Source of the DNA: Collibacillus ludicampi
Lineage (GTDB): Bacteria > Bacillota > Bacilli > Tumebacillales > BOQE01
DNA: 64,000 nucleotides
Assembly (NCBI RefSeq): GCF_023705585.1
Contig: NZ_BOQE01000001.1
Span: 3,876,710 to 3,940,709 of the forward strand
Direction of reading: 5' to 3'
This document shows positions 929 to 10,246 of the stretch, piece after piece. A program made the position numbers and the translations under genes. The notes beneath the pieces are model-generated. The model saw only the letters and a list, made by a program, of their open reading frames with translations, was not told where the DNA came from and searched no databases. How positions within the stretch are numbered: the first letter of the stretch is position 1; every line of letters begins with the position of its first letter.

Positions 929-1837
929 TCAAGCCTGTGTTCCCGCTTTCTCGACTTGTTCATGCGCATGATAAGAAGAACGAACCAACGGCCCGGACTC
1001 GACGTGTTTGAATCCGCGTTTCATTCCTTCTTCTTTCAAAGCTGCAAATTCTTCAGGTGTCCAATATCGGGAGACAGGCAAATGTTTTCTTGTCGGTTGC
1101 AGGTATTGTCCGATCGTCATGATGTCGCAATCAACCGCTCGCAAATCGTCCATCGTTTGCAAAATTTCTTCCCACGTCTCACCTACACCGATCATAATAC
1201 TCGATTTGGTGGGAATGTGAGGTTTCATCTCCTTCGCACGGCGAAGCAACTCAAGTGAGCGGTCATACTTAGCCTTGGAGCGGACTTTATCGGATAGGCG
1301 GCGGACGGTTTCGATGTTATGATTCAGGATATCCGGCTCTGCATCCATGACCACTTGCAAAGCATCCCAGTTGCCCATGAAATCGGGAATCAAGACTTCT
1401 ACCGAACATAATGGTACCCGTTCGCGAATCGCACGGATCGTAGCAGCGAAGATGGAAGCTCCTCCGTCGGCCAAATCATCGCGGGCTACCGATGTGACTA
1501 CTACGTGCCTCAACCCCATGTGTTCCACAGACTCGGCCACACGTCCTGGCTCTTCAAGATCCAATTCGGTCGGCAAACCGGATGTTACTGCACAAAAGCG
1601 ACAAGCTCTCGTACAAATATTTCCAAGAATCATGAAGGTAGCCGTCCGATTGGCCCAACATTCGTAAATATTGGGACAACGCGCTTCTTCGCATACCGTG
1701 TGCAACGTATTGCCACGCATTAATTTTTTCAATTCCCGAAAATTATCTCCGGTATTGAGGTGAATCTTAAGCCACTCAGGCCGTCGACCTGGTCTTGGAT
1801 TCTCATCAGTCGTTGATACCACTTGCAATTCTTCCAA
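929..1837 (-). CDS. lipA: Lipoyl synthase
   Basis: This radical-SAM enzyme inserts two sulfurs into protein-bound octanoyl groups to make lipoyl cofactors. It shows the auxiliary cluster motif [12 protein letters not shown] near residue 50 and the radical-SAM CTRACRFC motif, with the family's usual length near 300 residues (302 here). I chose the TTG at 1837 because GAGGTG sits six bases upstream; a GTG at 1846 lies within that ribosome site. It follows bkdB by 41 bases, so lipoyl supply appears coupled to the E2 subunit that requires it. The position inside a bkd operon is less usual than a lip cluster. Confidence 0.93.
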
Positions 1838-1878
1838 CAGATGCACCTCACAATCTATTAATGGTTCAGATACACGTT

Positions 1879-3252
1879 CTAATAGAGGCGAATGGAATCG
1901 GCGCTCATGTTCTCCAACCGCTTTTTAACCGCGGCGAGGAATTTCCCACATACCAACCCGTCCAACACGCGATGGTCAAGCGATAAGCACATATTCATCA
2001 TGTGTCGGATAGCAATGGAATCATCCGGCATGATGACGGGTTTTTTCACGATCGCTTCCATCGTCAATATCGCGGCCTGCGGAGAATTGATGATCGGTTG
2101 AGAGAGAATTGAACCGAAAGCACCCGTATTATTCACCGTGAACGTTCCGCCTGACATATCGGCGGGTGTCAGTTTACCGGCCCGCGCCCGTGTCGCTAAA
2201 TCATGGATGGCATGTGCGAGTCCCAATACTGATAGACGATCCGCATGGTGAATGACGGGAACAAACAATGCATCGTCACTGGCGACAGCGATTGAAATAT
2301 GGATTTGCTTCTTGAGAATAATCTTATCCTCTGCCCACTCGGAATTCAAGATTGGATATTCTTTTAATGATTCGACGACCGCTTTAATGAAAAGAGGCAA
2401 ATACGTAAGTGAAAATCCTTCTTTCTTCTTGAACTCGTCTTTGACTCGTTCGCGGAATCGAACCATATTTGTGACATCCACTTCCACCATCGTCCATGCA
2501 TGGGGCGCCTGATGTTTGGATTCCAACATACGTTTCGCGATCGTGCGGCGAATCGGTGTGACCGGGATCGCTGTTTCATCTTCTCTTAAAGAACGGCCTG
2601 TTAACGTTTGCGCCAGTTGATTCTGGGGCTGTGCGGAAACTGTTTCCGACGGCTGAACAGTTTCATTGAACGTTATAGGTCCTGTTGCCGGTTTTGTGGG
2701 TGCCGCGACACTGGAAAGGTCTTCTTCTGTCTTGGTCAACTGCACGCGACCTGTTATTTGTCTATTTTCAAGGTAAGCGAGTACATCTTTACGCGTAATC
2801 CGCCCCCCAAGTCCCGTACCCGAAATTTCAGAAGGATCGATTCCATGTTCTTGCAACAAATGCATCACTGCTGGTGAAAAGCGCGGTCGCGCCACATCCA
2901 CGCGTGAAGTTTGTTCCTTCACTCTCGAAAGTCCTTCCGTTGTAACACGCGCTTCTGCCGACTCCCCATTTTCCGCCTGAACTTCTATACTCTCATCCGC
3001 ATGAACAGGCTGTTGACCCGCCTCTTCAATCTGCGCGATTGGAGTACCCACCGCTACAGTCGTTCCCTCTTCGACAAGAATTTTTGTGAGCACGCCTTCA
3101 AAATCTGAAGGTACCTCTGCATTCACTTTGTCGGTGATCACTTCGGCGATCGGCTCATATTTTTGTACAGAATCACCCACTTGTTTTAACCATTTTGCGA
3201 TCGTTCCTTCGGTTACGGATTCCCCTAATTGAGGCATGAGAATCTGGGCCAT
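1879..3252 (-). CDS. bkdB: Branched-chain 2-oxoacid dehydrogenase E2 (dihydrolipoyl acyltransferase)
   Basis: E2 core of the branched-chain 2-oxoacid dehydrogenase complex, transferring acyl groups from lipoyl to CoA. Three regions are visible in 457 residues: an N-terminal lipoyl domain with the modified Lys in [11 protein letters not shown] (about residue 43), a peripheral subunit-binding domain ([14 protein letters not shown] to [10 protein letters not shown]), and a C-terminal acyltransferase domain ending in the catalytic SLDHRVLDG. Long linkers separate them. An AGGAGG site precedes the ATG. It lies directly after the E1 genes, which argues against pyruvate or 2-oxoglutarate specificity. 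Confidence 0.93.
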
Positions 3253-3321: not shown

Positions 3322-4305
3322 CTAGAATTCAGCCAGTTTGCGCATAGCATCGGCAATTTTGTTGGGATTTAACATATAAAATTTCTCCAGAGGGGGCATG
3401 TAAGGCATCGCCGGAATCTCTGGACCGCAAAGCCGCGCGATCGGTGCGTCCAATTCAAACAGGGCTTCTTCGGCAATCATGGCAGAAACCTCTGCACCGA
3501 TCCCCCCCACTTTATTGTCCTCGTGAACAATCAAGACTTTTCCCGTTCTGGCTGTACCTTCAAGAATCGCGTCTTTATCCAAAGGCTTGAGTGTGACCAG
3601 GTCAACGATGTGAGCGGAGATTCCTTCTTTCGCTACGATATCGGCCGCTTCCAGGCAGTAATGCACCATGAGACCATAGGTAAATACAGTGATGTCCGTC
3701 CCTTCCCGTTTCACGTTCGCCTTGCCGATCGGTAGCGTATAATCCCCTTCGGGAACATCGCCCTTAATTAAACGATAACAACGTTTATGTTCAAAAAAGA
3801 GAACCGGATCCTCATCGCGAATGGCCGCTTTTAAAAGGCCCTTCACTTCATACGGGGTGGAGGGGGCAACGATCTTCAAGCCTGGGACATGATGAAATAA
3901 CGCCTCCACGCTTTGCGAATGATAAAGCGCACCATGTACGCCTCCACCGTAAGGTGCGCGTATCACTAGCGGACAATCCCAATCATTGTTTGAACGATAA
4001 CGGATTCTTGCCGCTTCGGAAACGATTTGATTAAACGCGGGCATAATGAAATCGGCAAACTGAATTTCGGCCACCGGACGCATCCCCGCCATTGCGGCTC
4101 CGATCGCCACACCGACGATCGCAGATTCGGCAAGAGGTGTATCCATCACTCGATCTTCACCAAATCTTTCGATCAATCCTGCTGTCGCCCGGAAAACGCC
4201 TCCTCGAACGCCCACGTCTTCCCCGAGAACAAAGACGCGAGGATCAGCCTCCATCTCTTCGGCGAGGGCTTCCGTCACTGCTTCGATATAGGACTTGATG
4301 GCCAT
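3322..4305 (-). CDS. bkdAB: Branched-chain 2-oxoacid dehydrogenase E1 beta subunit
   Basis: Beta chain of the thiamine-diphosphate-dependent decarboxylase that acts on 2-oxoisovalerate, 2-oxoisocaproate and 2-oxo-3-methylvalerate. The 327 residues match the family length and include VFVLGEDVGVRGGVFRAT, MDTPLAESAIVG, RAPYGGGVHGALYHSQS and the C-terminal transketolase domain (VFTYGLMVHYCLEAA, EVSAMIAEEA). A GGGGAG ribosome site precedes the ATG. It is separated by 18 bases from bkdAA, indicating cotranscription. Confidence 0.92.
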   Translation of the reverse strand: MAIKSYIEAVTEALAEEMEADPRVFVLGEDVGVRGGVFRATAGLIERFGEDRVMDTPLAESAIVGVAIGAAMAGMRPVAEIQFADFIMPAFNQIVSEAARIRYRSNNDWDCPLVIRAPYGGGVHGALYHSQSVEALFHHVPGLKIVAPSTPYEVKGLLKAAIRDEDPVLFFEHKRCYRLIKGDVPEGDYTLPIGKANVKREGTDITVFTYGLMVHYCLEAADIVAKEGISAHIVDLVTLKPLDKDAILEGTARTGKVLIVHEDNKVGGIGAEVSAMIAEEALFELDAPIARLCGPEIPAMPYMPPLEKFYMLNPNKIADAMRKLAEF

Positions 4306-4323: not shown

Positions 4324-5316
4324 CTATTCCTCTTTGTACACGTGCAGAAGCGCTGTTTCCGGTTCTGCAAAAGGCGCTTTTTCCGCCGCTTCTGTAGCCT
4401 CATTGACTTCTTTCATGATCGCGTCCTGGATTTCACGGTCAAGTTCGTCTGTCAGGATTCCTGTCTCACGCAGATATGCGGAGAAGAGAATGATCGGATC
4501 TCGTTTCTTCGCCGTCTCGACTTCCTCCCGCGAACGATAGCTGCGATCATCATCATCGGAAGAGTGGGGAACTAGGCGATAAGTCTTCGCTTCGATGAGC
4601 GTTGGCCCTTCGCCTGCTCGTGCACGTGCAACCGCTTCTTTAAACACGCGATAGACTTCAAGTACATCATTGCCGTCGACGACCACGCCTGGAAATCCGT
4701 AAGCAATTGCACGGTCAGCCACATTCTCGCAAGCAAGCTGCTTGGCTTCGGGTATCGATATCGCATATTTGTTATTCTCACAATAGAAGATGACAGGAAG
4801 CTTATGAACGCCGGCGAAATTGCAGGCCTCATGAAAATCTCCCTGGTTCGTCGAACCTTCACCGAGGGACGTGAAAGCCACCGACTTTTCTCCGCGAAGC
4901 TTTCCGGCAAGCGCAAACCCTACTGCATGGGGAACCTGGGTCGCCACTGGTGAAGAGCCTGTGACGATATGGAATCTCTTGCCGCCATAGTGTCCGGGCA
5001 TCTGCCGTCCGCCCGAATTGGGATCCCCCGGTTTGGCGAAAGCGGAATACATGATATCAGTAGCCGTTTGTCCGAAGACCAAAACGATACCCAGATCACG
5101 ATAATACGGACACATCCAGTCCAAATTCCTGTCAAATGCGAAAGCCGCTCCCACCTGTGCAGCCTCTTGTCCCTGACACGAAATGACGAACGGAATTTTG
5201 CCCGCGCGGTTCAAGATCCACATCCGTTCATCGAGCCGACGTGCTAGCAGCATATATCTGTACATCTCAAGCACTTGCTCTCGCGTTAACCCCAGTTCTT
5301 CATGCTTATAAGTCAT
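4324..5316 (-). CDS. bkdAA: Branched-chain 2-oxoacid dehydrogenase E1 alpha subunit
   Basis: Alpha chain of the E1 decarboxylase. It carries the ThDP-binding region (LGEGSTNQGDFHEACNFAG, then NNKYAISIP) and the phosphorylation-loop-like YRLVPHSSDDDDRSYRS segment. The start at 5316 (MTYKHEELGL) follows AAAGGAGG at ideal spacing; upstream in-frame codons lack such a site and would run into lpdV. Length is 330 residues. It is 13 bases from lpdV, in the order lpdV-bkdAA-bkdAB-bkdB known from Bacillus subtilis. Confidence 0.93.
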   Translation of the reverse strand: MTYKHEELGLTREQVLEMYRYMLLARRLDERMWILNRAGKIPFVISCQGQEAAQVGAAFAFDRNLDWMCPYYRDLGIVLVFGQTATDIMYSAFAKPGDPNSGGRQMPGHYGGKRFHIVTGSSPVATQVPHAVGFALAGKLRGEKSVAFTSLGEGSTNQGDFHEACNFAGVHKLPVIFYCENNKYAISIPEAKQLACENVADRAIAYGFPGVVVDGNDVLEVYRVFKEAVARARAGEGPTLIEAKTYRLVPHSSDDDDRSYRSREEVETAKKRDPIILFSAYLRETGILTDELDREIQDAIMKEVNEATEAAEKAPFAEPETALLHVYKEE

Positions 5317-5329
5317 TCCACTTCCTCCT

Positions 5330-6754
5330 TTACGCATAATGGATCGCAATCCCATCGACAGCGAGTGCCGCTTCCCCGATCGCTTCCGAAAGTGTCGGAT
5401 GCGGATGAATGGCGATACCGACTTCCCAGGGGGTCGCATCGAGCAATTTTGCAAGACCGGCTTCCGAAATGAGATCCGTCACATGGGATCCGATCATATG
5501 CACTCCGATCAGATCATTCGTTTGCGCATTGGCCACCATTTTGACGAAACCGTCAACTTCCCCGTTGACCAGCGCTTTTCCAATCGCCCGGAAAGGGAAT
5601 TTACCTACTTTAACATCGATTCCTTTTTCCCTTGCCTCTTTTTCCGTCAATCCTACCGAAGCCACTTCAGGCCGTGAATAGGTACATTTCGGAACTTGCG
5701 TGTAATCGAGAGGATGAGGATTTTTTCCCGCGATCGTTTCGACAGCAATGATTCCCTCATGGGAAGCGACATGTGCCAATTGCAAACCTCCGATCACATC
5801 CCCGATCGCAAAAATATTCGCCTCTTTCGTACGGTAATATGGATCCACTTTGATAAACCCGCGCTCCACTTCAACTTCTGTCGCTTCCAATCCGATGTCA
5901 TCTACGATTGCTTCTCGTCCGACCGCCACCAAGATTTTTTCAGCCGCAAGAGCTTCCGTCTGACCATTTCGTTCCACGGAAATCGCCACATGGCCGTCAC
6001 GATGTTCCAATGTTTCCGGCAGCACTTTCGTTCCCGTCATGAGTTTGATCTTGCGTTTTTTGAAATTCCTTTCAAGCTCAGCAGCCACGTCCTCGTCTTC
6101 TAAAGGTAAAATCTGAGGCATATACTCAACGAGCGTTACTTCCGTTCCAAAATCAGCCAACATAGAAGCCCACTCCACACCGATCGCACCTGCGCCGATG
6201 ATGATGACCGACTTCGGAATCTCACTGAGTTCCAGCGCTTCATCTGAAGTGATCACCGCCCGCCCGTCGATGTGTAAACCTGGAAGCGTTTTTGGCCGTG
6301 ATCCTGTCGCGATGATCACATGGCCCGGATTGAGAATTTCCGTTTCCCCGTTCTCTTTTTCCACACGAACGGCCCCTGCGCGAGGCGAAAAGATGGATGG
6401 CCCCATCACCCTTCCTGTACCTTGAATCACATCAACCTTGTTTTGTTTCAGAAGGTGTTGCACGCCTTTATGAAGTTGTCCGACGATTTTTGATTTTCGC
6501 TCCATCACTTTTGAAAAGTCGAGCTTCACATCCGGAGCCATAATACCAAATTCTTCTGACTTTTTCATGGTGTTGTAGAGTTCCGCACTTTTAAGTAACG
6601 CTTTTGAGGGTATGCACCCCCTATGCAAACAGGTTCCGCCCACTTTATCCCTTTCTACCAGCGCGACTTTAAGCCCTAACTGCGCGGCACGGATGGCTGC
6701 TACATAGCCACCCGTGCCTCCGCCGATCACAACGATGTCATACTGTTCCGCCAT
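5330..6754 (-). CDS. lpdV: Dihydrolipoyl dehydrogenase (E3)
   Basis: Flavoprotein that reoxidises dihydrolipoyl groups of E2 with NAD. The 474 residues show the FAD-binding GGGTGGYVAAIRAAQLG at the N-terminus, the redox-active disulfide GGTCLHRGCIPSKAL near residues 40-50, the NAD-binding IIGAGAIGVEWASML, the ANIFAIGDVIGG FAD motif and the C-terminal catalytic HPHPTLSE. Its place inside the bkd operon makes it the E3 dedicated to this complex. Confidence 0.95.
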   Translation of the reverse strand: MAEQYDIVVIGGGTGGYVAAIRAAQLGLKVALVERDKVGGTCLHRGCIPSKALLKSAELYNTMKKSEEFGIMAPDVKLDFSKVMERKSKIVGQLHKGVQHLLKQNKVDVIQGTGRVMGPSIFSPRAGAVRVEKENGETEILNPGHVIIATGSRPKTLPGLHIDGRAVITSDEALELSEIPKSVIIIGAGAIGVEWASMLADFGTEVTLVEYMPQILPLEDEDVAAELERNFKKRKIKLMTGTKVLPETLEHRDGHVAISVERNGQTEALAAEKILVAVGREAIVDDIGLEATEVEVERGFIKVDPYYRTKEANIFAIGDVIGGLQLAHVASHEGIIAVETIAGKNPHPLDYTQVPKCTYSRPEVASVGLTEKEAREKGIDVKVGKFPFRAIGKALVNGEVDGFVKMVANAQTNDLIGVHMIGSHVTDLISEAGLAKLLDATPWEVGIAIHPHPTLSEAIGEAALAVDGIAIHYA

Positions 6755-6785: not shown

Positions 6786-7874
6786 TCACTTCAGAAGATT
6801 CTTTTCCGTGCGAATAAACGAAGAACGAACACGTCTCATTTGTTCAATGCGCTCTTCCGCCATGCGGTCGGCTGCCTTGTATGTCGGAATGCCGTCGCGT
6901 TTAGCGATCTCATATACGTTCAACATGATGTTGTAGATATTTTCCACTTTCTTTTGCGCTCTTTCTGCGTTGTACCCTTCCAGTTCATCGGCGACATTGA
7001 TGACTCCGCCTGCGTTGATCACGTAATCTGGAGCGTAGAGTATCCCTTTCTCATGCAAGATATCCCCATGCCGTTCTTCCTTTAACTGATTGTTGGCCGA
7101 ACCGGCAACGATCTGACATTTTAATTGCGGGATCGTTTCATCATTAATGATCGCTCCCAATGCGCAAGGAGCGAAAATATCACACTCCACGCCGAAAATA
7201 TCGTTCGGAGCGACCGCTTCCGCATGGAATTCCTCAACCACTCGCTTCACGTTTTCGTCATTAATATCGGTCACAATGAGTTTAGCACCTGCATCATGCA
7301 AATGTTTGCAAAGATAGTACCCTACGTTCCCTACCCCTTGAACCGCTACCTTTTTATTTTCGAGCAAATCGGTTCCGAACACTTCCTTCGCGGACGCCTG
7401 GATCCCGCGGAATACGCCCAGTGCTGTCATCGGAGACGGATTGCCGGAAGAACCGTACGTTTGTGATACACCTGTCACATAATTGGTTTCCTGATGGATA
7501 ATGTCCATATCCGTAACAGTTGTACCGACATCTTCCGCAGTGATATACCGTCCGTTGAGACTTTCCACATAGCGGCCTAACGCACGGAACAACGCTTCCG
7601 ACTTGTCGGTGCGCGGATTACCGATGACAACCGTCTTGCCGCCTCCGAGATTCAAACCTGCAGCCGCATTCTTATAAGTCATTCCGCGTGCGAGACGCAG
7701 AGCATCTACAATCGCATCCTCTTCTGAAGCGTATGTCCACATGCGGCAACCGCCAAGTGCAGGTCCGAGCGTGGTATCATGTATGGCTATAATCGCTTTC
7801 AAGCCTGAAGCTTCATCATGGCAAAACACCAATTGTTCATAATCGTATGTTTGCATGTACTCGAAAATTTTCAT
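6786..7874 (-). CDS. bcd: Leucine (branched-chain amino acid) dehydrogenase
   Basis: NAD-dependent oxidative deamination of leucine, valine and isoleucine to 2-oxoacids, feeding the E1-E2-E3 complex encoded just downstream. The 362 residues contain the glycine-rich catalytic segment [14 protein letters not shown], the Rossmann motif [15 protein letters not shown] and the [10 protein letters not shown] block of the Glu/Leu/Phe/Val dehydrogenase family. It is the first gene after the sigma-54 promoter, with a leader of roughly 150 bases. The ptb and buk genes that flank it in B. subtilis are absent here. Confidence 0.93.
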
Positions 7875-8034
7875 GTGTAGAGTCCTCCTTGCAAATCGAT
7901 ACTCTTTTTTGATGACCAGGTACTAGGACTTCCTCTCACCATTTTTCAGCATACCACGTTTTCACTCCAAAAGAAAGCAAAGCCATCCAAGAAGTGTCAA
8001 CGTGATCATGCCTTTCTTTCACGCAGAATATTTA

Positions 8035-8053
8035 TTTGCAAACGGCATGCCAA
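8035..8053 (-). promoter_or_regulatory. Sigma-54 promoter of the bcd-bkd operon
   Basis: The minus strand reads TTGGCATGCCGTTTGCAAA, matching TTGGCACG-N4-TTGCA with a single substitution. GG (8051-8050) and GC (8039-8038) are separated by exactly ten bases. Predicted transcription start is near 8026. The gene next upstream encodes a sigma-54 activator, consistent with BkdR control of bkd genes in B. subtilis. Confidence 0.88.
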
Positions 8054-8115
8054 AAACAGCCGGTTCATCCAACGGGGATTTTTCGACAAATGTAATGTTC
8101 CCCCGTTTTTATATA

Positions 8116-8154
8116 TGCATTTTTTTGCATGGTGCCTGCAGTTTTTTGCAGGCA
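8116..8154. promoter_or_regulatory. Tandem upstream activator palindromes for BkdR
   Basis: Two dyads share the core TGCA-N6-TGCA: 8116-8129 and 8137-8150. The second extends to TGCCTGCA-N6-TGCAGGCA (8133-8154). Their centres are 21 bases apart, two helical turns, and about 96 and 117 bases upstream of the predicted start, the normal place for enhancer sites. Binding by the neighbouring Fis-type regulator is inferred. Confidence 0.65.
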
Positions 8155-8161
8155 AATTCAT

Positions 8162-10246
8162 TCATATATTCTGTATGCCATATTTCTCGAGTTTGTAATA
8201 CAGACTGCGGATCGCGATCCCAAGAATTTTAGCAGCTTCCGTTTTATTCCCTTTCGTACGTTTCAGAACACGTCTGATATGAGCTTGCTCCACTTCCTCG
8301 AGTATTTCCGCTAATGTTCGCGAGCACACATGTTCTTCGTTCGCAATTTGTTCTTTCTGTACACTCGGAGAATCGTCTTCTTTTTTTCTCTCTGGCGGAA
8401 GATCCGGCAAGTGATGAGGTTCGATCACAGTTTCCGTAAACTGCATATTGATGATCGCCCGTCCCAACACATTCTCCAATTCTCGAACATTCCCCGGCCA
8501 ATGATAGGCCATCATGCGTGCGATCGCGCCTTCCGATAGTTTCTCCACATTCCGCCCATATTCTTGGTTAAATTTCTGAATCAGTTTGTGAGCGATCGGC
8601 ACGATATCTTCTTTGCGATAACGCAAAGAAGGGATGATGATCGGCAACACGTTCAGACGATAATAAAGATCTTCACGGAACGTTCCTCGCTGAATCGCCC
8701 TTTCCAGATTGACATTGGTCGCAGCGATGACGCGGACGTTTACGGGAATCGCTTGCGATGATCCCACGCGTACGATTTCCTTTTCTTGCAGGACGCGCAA
8801 GATCTTGGCTTGTGTACTCATCGTAAGTTCACCGATTTCGTCCAGAAAAATCGTTCCGCCAGACGCTTCTTCAAACAATCCTTTCTTTCCGCCGCGTCTC
8901 GCTCCTGTGAAAGCGCCTTCAACATATCCGAACAATTCGCTCTCGAGCAGGGTCTCGGATATTGCGGCACAATTCACGCGGACGAATTGTTTATATTTGC
9001 GCGCTGAAGCGTTGTGAATCGCGTGCGCGAACAACTCTTTTCCCGTTCCCGATTCGCCGCGCAATAGAACAGTGGCCGACGTGTTTGCCGCGATGCGCGC
9101 CTGTTCCAATGCCATCACCATTTCGGCGGATGAGCCAATGATGTCGTCAAACGTGTATTTCGCCTGTAGTGTGCGGATCAATTGCTTTGCCTTATCCAGT
9201 TCATCCGACAGCATCTTGATTTCCGACATATCATGAATGACACCCACGGAGCCTTTTAAAACCCCATCGACGATGATCGGTGCCACATTCACTATGACAT
9301 CTCGCCGTTTGGGGCCCACTTTCATATGAACACCCCTTACAGGCTGCTGGGTTTTCAAGACACGCAGGTGCATGGATTCACCTTCCGCGATATCCACCGT
9401 AGCCGGTTTGCCGATCACATCCTGTTCTTTCAGGCCTGTCAGGCGCGTATAAGCAGGATTGATCAAGATCCCATGCCCTTTTTCATCGACAACGGAAATC
9501 GCGTCATGGGTCGAACTGATGATCGCTTCCAGCATCGAGCGCATCTCTTTTAAATTGGTGACTTCTTCAGCCAGGGCTAGTACTTCCGTTACATCGCGAA
9601 AAACAGCAACCGCCCCGACGATCGTACCGTTTTCATCACGAACGGGAACGCGATTGGTGATGATCCGGTTGTCGTGCAAAACTTGCAATTGATTGATTTC
9701 GGGAACACCCGTTTCCAAAACGATATGCAAGCGGGAATTCGGTATTTTGTCTCTGACTAAATAACCGATGACTTCGTGCGCTTTCAAGCCGGTTAATCGT
9801 TCCGCGGCCGCGTTGAAGAGAGTGATGACTCCGTCCGCATTCACAGCGATCATCGCATCATGCGTAGAGTTTAAAATGACATCCAGCTCTTTGCGCTGCA
9901 AAGATAAACGGTGAATCAACGCCTCTTTTTCATCGATCAACGACATGATTAAGGAAGCTACCGTCCCAGGGATCAAAATCGCACGGGGTGGTTTTTTCTC
10001 TAAGATTTCCTCATACACGTCCATCTTTCCGGTAGCTTCGATAATCATATCCACATCGTTCGTTAAGAAGTCGGTAAAATCCCTTCCTGTCATGATTCCC
10101 ATTTTTCTCGCTAGGCGCAATCCGGGTGCCTCTTCATTCACATCCACGATCGCGATCACTTGTACTTTGGCGAGATTGCGAAAGGCGCGAAGCACGGCAG
10201 AACCGCCTTTGCCTGCACCGACGATCAAGATACGTATCGCTTTCAT
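8162..10246 (-). CDS. bkdR: Sigma-54-dependent activator, BkdR-like, with N-terminal Rossmann-type domain
   Basis: Likely activator of the bcd-bkd operon. The 694 residues show, in order: a Rossmann-like domain starting ILIVGAGKGGSAVL (about 1-110), two PAS domains (about 120-230 and 240-350), an AAA+ domain with Walker A GESGTGKE, the sigma-54-contacting GAFTGA loop and GGTIFLDEIGEL, and a Fis-type helix-turn-helix (GNKTEAAKILGIAIRSLYYKL). The ATG at 10246 has AGGAGA eight bases upstream; further upstream codons lack a site. The Rossmann domain suggests sensing of a nucleotide cofactor or an acyl/oxoacid ligand, which is inference. Confidence 0.88.
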   Translation of the reverse strand: MKAIRILIVGAGKGGSAVLRAFRNLAKVQVIAIVDVNEEAPGLRLARKMGIMTGRDFTDFLTNDVDMIIEATGKMDVYEEILEKKPPRAILIPGTVASLIMSLIDEKEALIHRLSLQRKELDVILNSTHDAMIAVNADGVITLFNAAAERLTGLKAHEVIGYLVRDKIPNSRLHIVLETGVPEINQLQVLHDNRIITNRVPVRDENGTIVGAVAVFRDVTEVLALAEEVTNLKEMRSMLEAIISSTHDAISVVDEKGHGILINPAYTRLTGLKEQDVIGKPATVDIAEGESMHLRVLKTQQPVRGVHMKVGPKRRDVIVNVAPIIVDGVLKGSVGVIHDMSEIKMLSDELDKAKQLIRTLQAKYTFDDIIGSSAEMVMALEQARIAANTSATVLLRGESGTGKELFAHAIHNASARKYKQFVRVNCAAISETLLESELFGYVEGAFTGARRGGKKGLFEEASGGTIFLDEIGELTMSTQAKILRVLQEKEIVRVGSSQAIPVNVRVIAATNVNLERAIQRGTFREDLYYRLNVLPIIIPSLRYRKEDIVPIAHKLIQKFNQEYGRNVEKLSEGAIARMMAYHWPGNVRELENVLGRAIINMQFTETVIEPHHLPDLPPERKKEDDSPSVQKEQIANEEHVCSRTLAEILEEVEQAHIRRVLKRTKGNKTEAAKILGIAIRSLYYKLEKYGIQNI

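Follow-up and report, generated by a model that had tools for sequence, protein, structure and literature searches.

The 64,000-nucleotide stretch of Collibacillus ludicampi DNA analysed here (the window) carries a regulator gene, bkdR, directly upstream of the genes for branched-chain keto acid dehydrogenase, which raises the question of whether the DNA between them is the control region through which this regulator acts and whether relatives share it. Our analysis indicates, with a probability of about 0.93 as judged from sequence comparison, that it constitutes the enhancer and promoter through which BkdR and sigma-54 control the dehydrogenase operon. The module is very probably ordinary, well formed and functional, of the BkdR/SigL kind known from Bacillus, and the interesting part is the class-wide site, the candidate specificity switch and the suggested conversion of the regulator that emerged from comparison with relatives.

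The control region between bkdR and bcd

8162..10246, minus strand: bkdR, with a predicted ATG at 10246 (ORF finder start 10363); domain search and alignment
8180..8212, minus strand: codons of the predicted BkdR recognition helix, model residues 678–688 including RSLYYK; model
8151..8164, minus strand: TGAA-N6-TGCC, a possible third dyad another 14 bp upstream that overlaps the bkdR stop codon; weak alone
8137..8150, minus strand: distal dyad of the upstream activating sequence (UAS), TGCAAAAAACTGCA, centre 8143.5, about -116 to -117; sequence and class-wide conservation
8116..8129, minus strand: proximal UAS dyad, TGCAAAAAAATGCA, centre 8122.5, about -95 to -96; sequence and class-wide conservation
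8037..8053, minus strand: sigma-54 -24/-12 element of the bcd-bkd operon, TTGGCATGCCGTTTGCA; read from sequence, conserved in orthologous loci
6786..7874, minus strand: bcd, leucine/valine dehydrogenase type, first operon gene; ORF and Pfam
5330..6754, minus strand: dihydrolipoamide dehydrogenase (E3); ORF and Pfam
4324..5454, minus strand: E1 alpha of branched-chain keto acid dehydrogenase, whose true start probably lies inside the listed ORF; ORF as listed and Pfam
3322..4305, minus strand: E1 beta; ORF and Pfam
1879..3252, minus strand: E2 acyltransferase; ORF and Pfam
929..1846, minus strand: lipoyl synthase, 32 bp after E2; ORF and Pfam

Pfam analysis of the window BkdR showed two PAS domains, a sigma-54 AAA+ domain and a Fis-type HTH, with the GAFTGA loop and Walker motifs intact. 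Its N-terminus is Rossmann-like, with weak DapB_N and GFO_IDH_MocA matches below curated cut-offs; residues 1–100 (9944–10246) contain GAGxGG, and G9, G11, G14 and D34 were invariant in 19 aligned proteins. This domain could be a sensor of NAD(H) or an acyl-CoA. Structure search with BkdR returned only AAA+ regulators among the matches listed and none for the N-terminal domain, and in most Clostridia relatives (best 80 of 152) the match began only near residue 110. At the other end of the operon, lipoyl synthase directly follows E2 on the same strand, which possibly places both in one operon and may bring cofactor synthesis under BkdR control.

The original prediction placed a near-consensus -24/-12 element at 8035–8053, and the minus-strand sequence TGGCATGCCGTTTGCA at 8037–8052 proved to be a perfect element ahead of bcd. 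Reading from 8053 to 8037, the GG falls at 8051–8050, followed by ten bases and the GC at 8039–8038, positions from which +1 is predicted near 8027. The window contains a single mismatch-free copy of the sigma-54 pattern. With up to two mismatches allowed, the number of matches was at chance level (13 versus a mean of 16 by chance), so that it is the exactness of the bcd match that makes it notable. Genome-wide, 21 strict sites were found in comparison to 5 for a reversed-pattern control, and rpoN, on whose presence the prediction depended, was found in one copy (E 1e-65). The genome also holds 29 stretches similar to BkdR (sigma-54-type AAA+ regulators), which together with the 21 strict sites points to a rich sigma-54 network.

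Two exact TGCA-N6-TGCA dyads with centres 21 bp apart lie just past the bkdR stop (8162–8164), and direct reading bore out the earlier claims that they stand at about -96 and -117 and that the UAS (8116–8150) adjoins the 3' end of bkdR. The window contained six TGCA-N6-TGCA sequences versus 0.98 expected, one of which (7297–7310) is within bcd and was taken as chance. A genome-wide search located the paired form at a single site, and at none in the reversed control. The possible third dyad (8151–8164) fits the A-14-B-20/21-C array of some relatives, its position being judged from the L032 and L042 arrays and the spacing table. A search for a wider BkdR regulon, covering 350 bp upstream of the 20 other strict sigma-54 sites of this genome, found TGCA-N6-TGCA at none and TGAA-N6-TTCA at one.

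Calling the module complete was too strong, as two elements of relatives are absent or not evident here. Of the order's ten anchored loci, nine (L032–L040) had tolerant dyads ahead of bkdR, the exception being the window, where none was evident. A cre-like box (AAAGCGNTTTCA type) between the UAS and the -24 was counted by regular expression, without a shuffle baseline, in 68 of 138 relatives and is absent from the window; it suggests that roughly half of these relatives place their bkd promoters under CcpA control.

In the model we propose, dimers of BkdR would occupy two dyads of the TGCAANNNNTTGCA type, or perhaps three, which lie just past the bkdR stop and are separated by two turns of the helix. 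DNA looping would bring BkdR to sigma-54 RNA polymerase at 8037–8053, and the AAA+ ring would remodel this polymerase by means of the GAFTGA loop, with transcription starting near 8027 and running into bcd-lpd-E1a-E1b-E2. The inducer may be valine or isoleucine, a catabolite of either, or NAD(H) acting via the Rossmann-like domain.

This arrangement resembles bkd of B. subtilis and B. thuringiensis, where the parts of the reports covered here describe an upstream, co-directional regulator, a -12/-24 promoter and dependence on sigma-54 and BkdR (PMC4428206, PMC6461809), the homologous operon of B. thuringiensis being both BkdR- and sigma-54-dependent (PMC4428206). Unlike Bacillus bkd, the window operon begins at bcd and has neither ptb nor buk between bkdR and E2. 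Debarbouille reportedly located the B. subtilis upstream activating sequences by deletion analysis in 1999. The covered parts of the B. subtilis and B. thuringiensis reports (PMC4428206, PMC6461809) describe no BkdR binding motif, and the literature searched, as far as its texts were covered, yielded no published BkdR site, specificity switch or sigma-54 decoupling; a published motif may nevertheless exist.

Conservation of the paired dyads

Of the order's 14 genomes, 12 had a BkdR orthologue, as did 219 of 398 sampled Bacilli (E ≤ 1e-120). Loci were taken from 188 of these 219 genomes, hand-picked from listings and not random; duplicates were removed only where 200 bp were identical, so that relatives are not independent. 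In the first set, 148 of 150 loci were parsed, and taking out two duplicates left 146 distinct ones; L137 was left out. For the named loci the best 80 of 152 were kept and L044–L061 were used, L043 repeating L033 and L062–L122 being more distant.

The original prediction required the dyads to recur in orthologous promoters, and this was the case: 115 of the 146 loci had an exact dyad no more than 150 bp from the bkdR stop, in comparison to 3.45 in dinucleotide shuffles, and 138 of the 146 had a sigma-54 site matching at least 14/17 within 500 bp past bkdR. The spacer was sharply N6 in these loci (208 dyads versus 10 at N5 and 11 at N7). Four-half-site arrays, with dyads 19–21 bp apart and at least 14/16 matching, were present in 99 of 175 distinct loci versus 0.4 in shuffles. 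The final set had an exact dyad in 146 of 203 distinct loci, and at least 7/8 half-site letters in 183 of 194 loci with the nine fused loci left out, the latter a raw count without a shuffle baseline.

Half-site neighbours favoured A (0.77) and T (0.72), giving the conserved core TGCA-A-N4-T-TGCA. In the window, 8133–8154 forms a perfect TGCCTGCA-N6-TGCAGGCA palindrome, and these 16 bp had been put forward as the binding motif. Its outer TGCC/GGCA was present in 2 of the 191 dyads, one of which is that of the window, and the palindrome was rejected as a family motif. Among more distant relatives, exact dyads were found in 11 of the 14 loci L048–L061, mostly labelled Clostridia or Bacillota, and were absent in L048, L058 and L060. 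A BkdR site across Bacilli and part of Clostridia is testable and would make regulons callable from sequence.

The UAS of Clostridiales EBPs are alike in that dyad sites of Fis-type EBPs were defined by comparison and mostly lie upstream of the sigma-54 element, but the motifs differ, being TGT-N10-12-ACA and others; the covered part of that main text mentions neither ptb, buk nor TGCA (Nie 2019, PMC6615313).

Most of L323–L339 (family f20, genus g21) had a variant -24 element of the GGAAAC-N6-TTGC type with GG-N10-GC kept, and rpoN of this genus (one tested) scored lower, which is possibly a divergent sigma-54 promoter consensus.

Relatives that have lost the sigma-54 contact loop

Of 93 full-length BkdR proteins, 72 had an intact G[AS]F[TS]GA and 70 of these were accompanied by a sigma-54 site, and the two loci without a scored site (L323 and L329) kept GG-N10-GC in a variant element; seven of the 72 were without a tolerant dyad. 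Where GAFTGA was lost, 20 of 21 loci had no -24/-12 site, and the exception, L271, is a chance match (14/17) within the next coding region, 422 bp away. Tolerant dyads after bkdR were nevertheless kept in 12 of these 21 loci. In the same 21 genomes rpoN gave no match above the cut-off in 12 (one with a weak sub-threshold match) and present in nine (one in two pieces). One genome, G035, argues against a simple rule joining loop, site and rpoN, as its locus (L123) combines dyads and a perfect sigma-54 site with an intact GAFTGA, yet no rpoN match was found; this reflects either a recent loss or an assembly gap (100% complete genome, 90 contigs).

The tree required a minimum of four loop changes. 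One is L129, whose conservative GSFTGA was counted as lost in the tree and as intact in the 70/72 comparison, and the remainder are f7, f11 and the single long-branched L265 (f39). These topologies indicate at least two independent GAFTGA losses (f7 and f11), with f39 perhaps a third, and such lineages would offer a natural experiment, at least twice over, on the rewiring of an obligate sigma-54 activator. They resemble TyrR, DhaR and HupR, which have a broken GAFTGA and sigma-70-type control according to the covered part of Francke 2011 (PMC3162934). The likeness concerns relatives only, since the intact GAFTGA of the window BkdR sets it apart from these proteins and excludes it as a TyrR-like sigma-54-independent regulator.

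In nine fused loci (L265, L271–L273, L277, L279, L284, L285 and L287) the bkdR gene was GAFTGA-less and the next gene began shortly past it with no dyad between. All nine had a TTGTCA-N17-TAnnAT promoter-like sequence ahead of bkdR, and dyads of TGCA/TGAA type were found 27 bp before the anchor in 9/9 and again at 58–59 bp in 8/9, this second dyad lying about 10 nt past the -10 hexamer. Dyads placed just past a vegetative-type promoter, the position expected of a repressor, suggest an activator-to-repressor conversion. Across the 79 loci with an anchored bkdR start, 23 had a tolerant dyad within 260 bp upstream, counted without a shuffle baseline.

Nine other loci (L220, L225–L227, L233, L234, L236, L237 and L264) had paired dyads after bkdR without a -24/-12 element. 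In several of these a TCTGNTTTAATTA block, seen by eye before the next gene, is possibly an extended -10.

The recognition helix and alternative readings of the dyads

Recognition helices among the 146 loci were RSLYYK (64), RNLYYK (63), RTLYYK (10) and few others, with RHLYNK in three f2 genomes. TGCA/TGCA dyads were found in 103 of the 127 RSLYYK/RNLYYK loci. Tolerant dyads before the promoter in the RHLYNK trio were TGAA/TTCA in six cases, TGCA/TTCA in one and TGCA/TGCA in none, the helix and site change counting as one evolutionary event in three genomes. L032 and L042 carried the full A-14-B-20-C array with each half-site changed (TGAA-N6-TTCA), and in the readable cases, L032 and L038, the dyads ahead of bkdR were changed too. 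A tree of 93 rows groups the window protein with f2 as its sister (SH-aLRT 98) and leaves TGCA-type relatives outside, so the change looks derived.

The S680H and Y683N changes fall where the predicted recognition helix, 678–688, begins (model; block pLDDT 86–88, pTM 0.42 overall). Alanine scanning of LuxO identified critical residues in the same helix, according to the covered part of that report (PMC11407668), with the residue correspondence to BkdR matched by eye. Y683N alone was rejected as the specificity switch, as sites in the RTLYNK clade remain mostly TGCA-type, though looser (by eye). The pair accompanies the TGCA to TGAA half-site switch and is a two-residue candidate for altering Fis-type HTH specificity.

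On balance, these comparisons lean towards a series of BkdR lineages leaving sigma-54, in which two lineages or more (f7, f11 and perhaps f39) lost GAFTGA and the -24/-12 together while BkdR and TGCA-N6-TGCA were kept, and in which fused loci went from activator to vegetative-promoter repressor, possibly via an autoregulatory site of the sort present in other relatives; separately, S680H/Y683N would have changed with TGCA to TGAA across arrays.

Alternatively, the dyads could be the operator of another, for example global, regulator lying by chance after bkdR. TGCA half-sites are generic, single dyads numbered 60 in this genome (36 in the reversed control), and the cre-like box of relatives indicates that other regulators may act nearby. 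We consider this improbable nonetheless, as the site changes with the BkdR recognition helix at two separate places in the RHLYNK clade, the dyads are retained where BkdR lost its sigma-54 contact loop, and fused operons place them ahead of bkdR instead. Slightly less probable again is a role at the RNA level, in which the inverted repeats would form hairpins that terminate or attenuate bkdR transcription: both dyads do fold, with -17.8 kcal/mol (z -2.7) for the transcribed strand and -20.6 (z -3.5) for the opposite one, but no T-run follows, the sole terminator-like match in 7850–8300 is a 5-bp stem elsewhere, and conservation in relatives is limited to the 4-bp TGCA arms and one flanking A/T, so that this reading was rejected. 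The conserved arms, the sharp N6 and the preferred dyad spacings fit protein dimers better than RNA stems.
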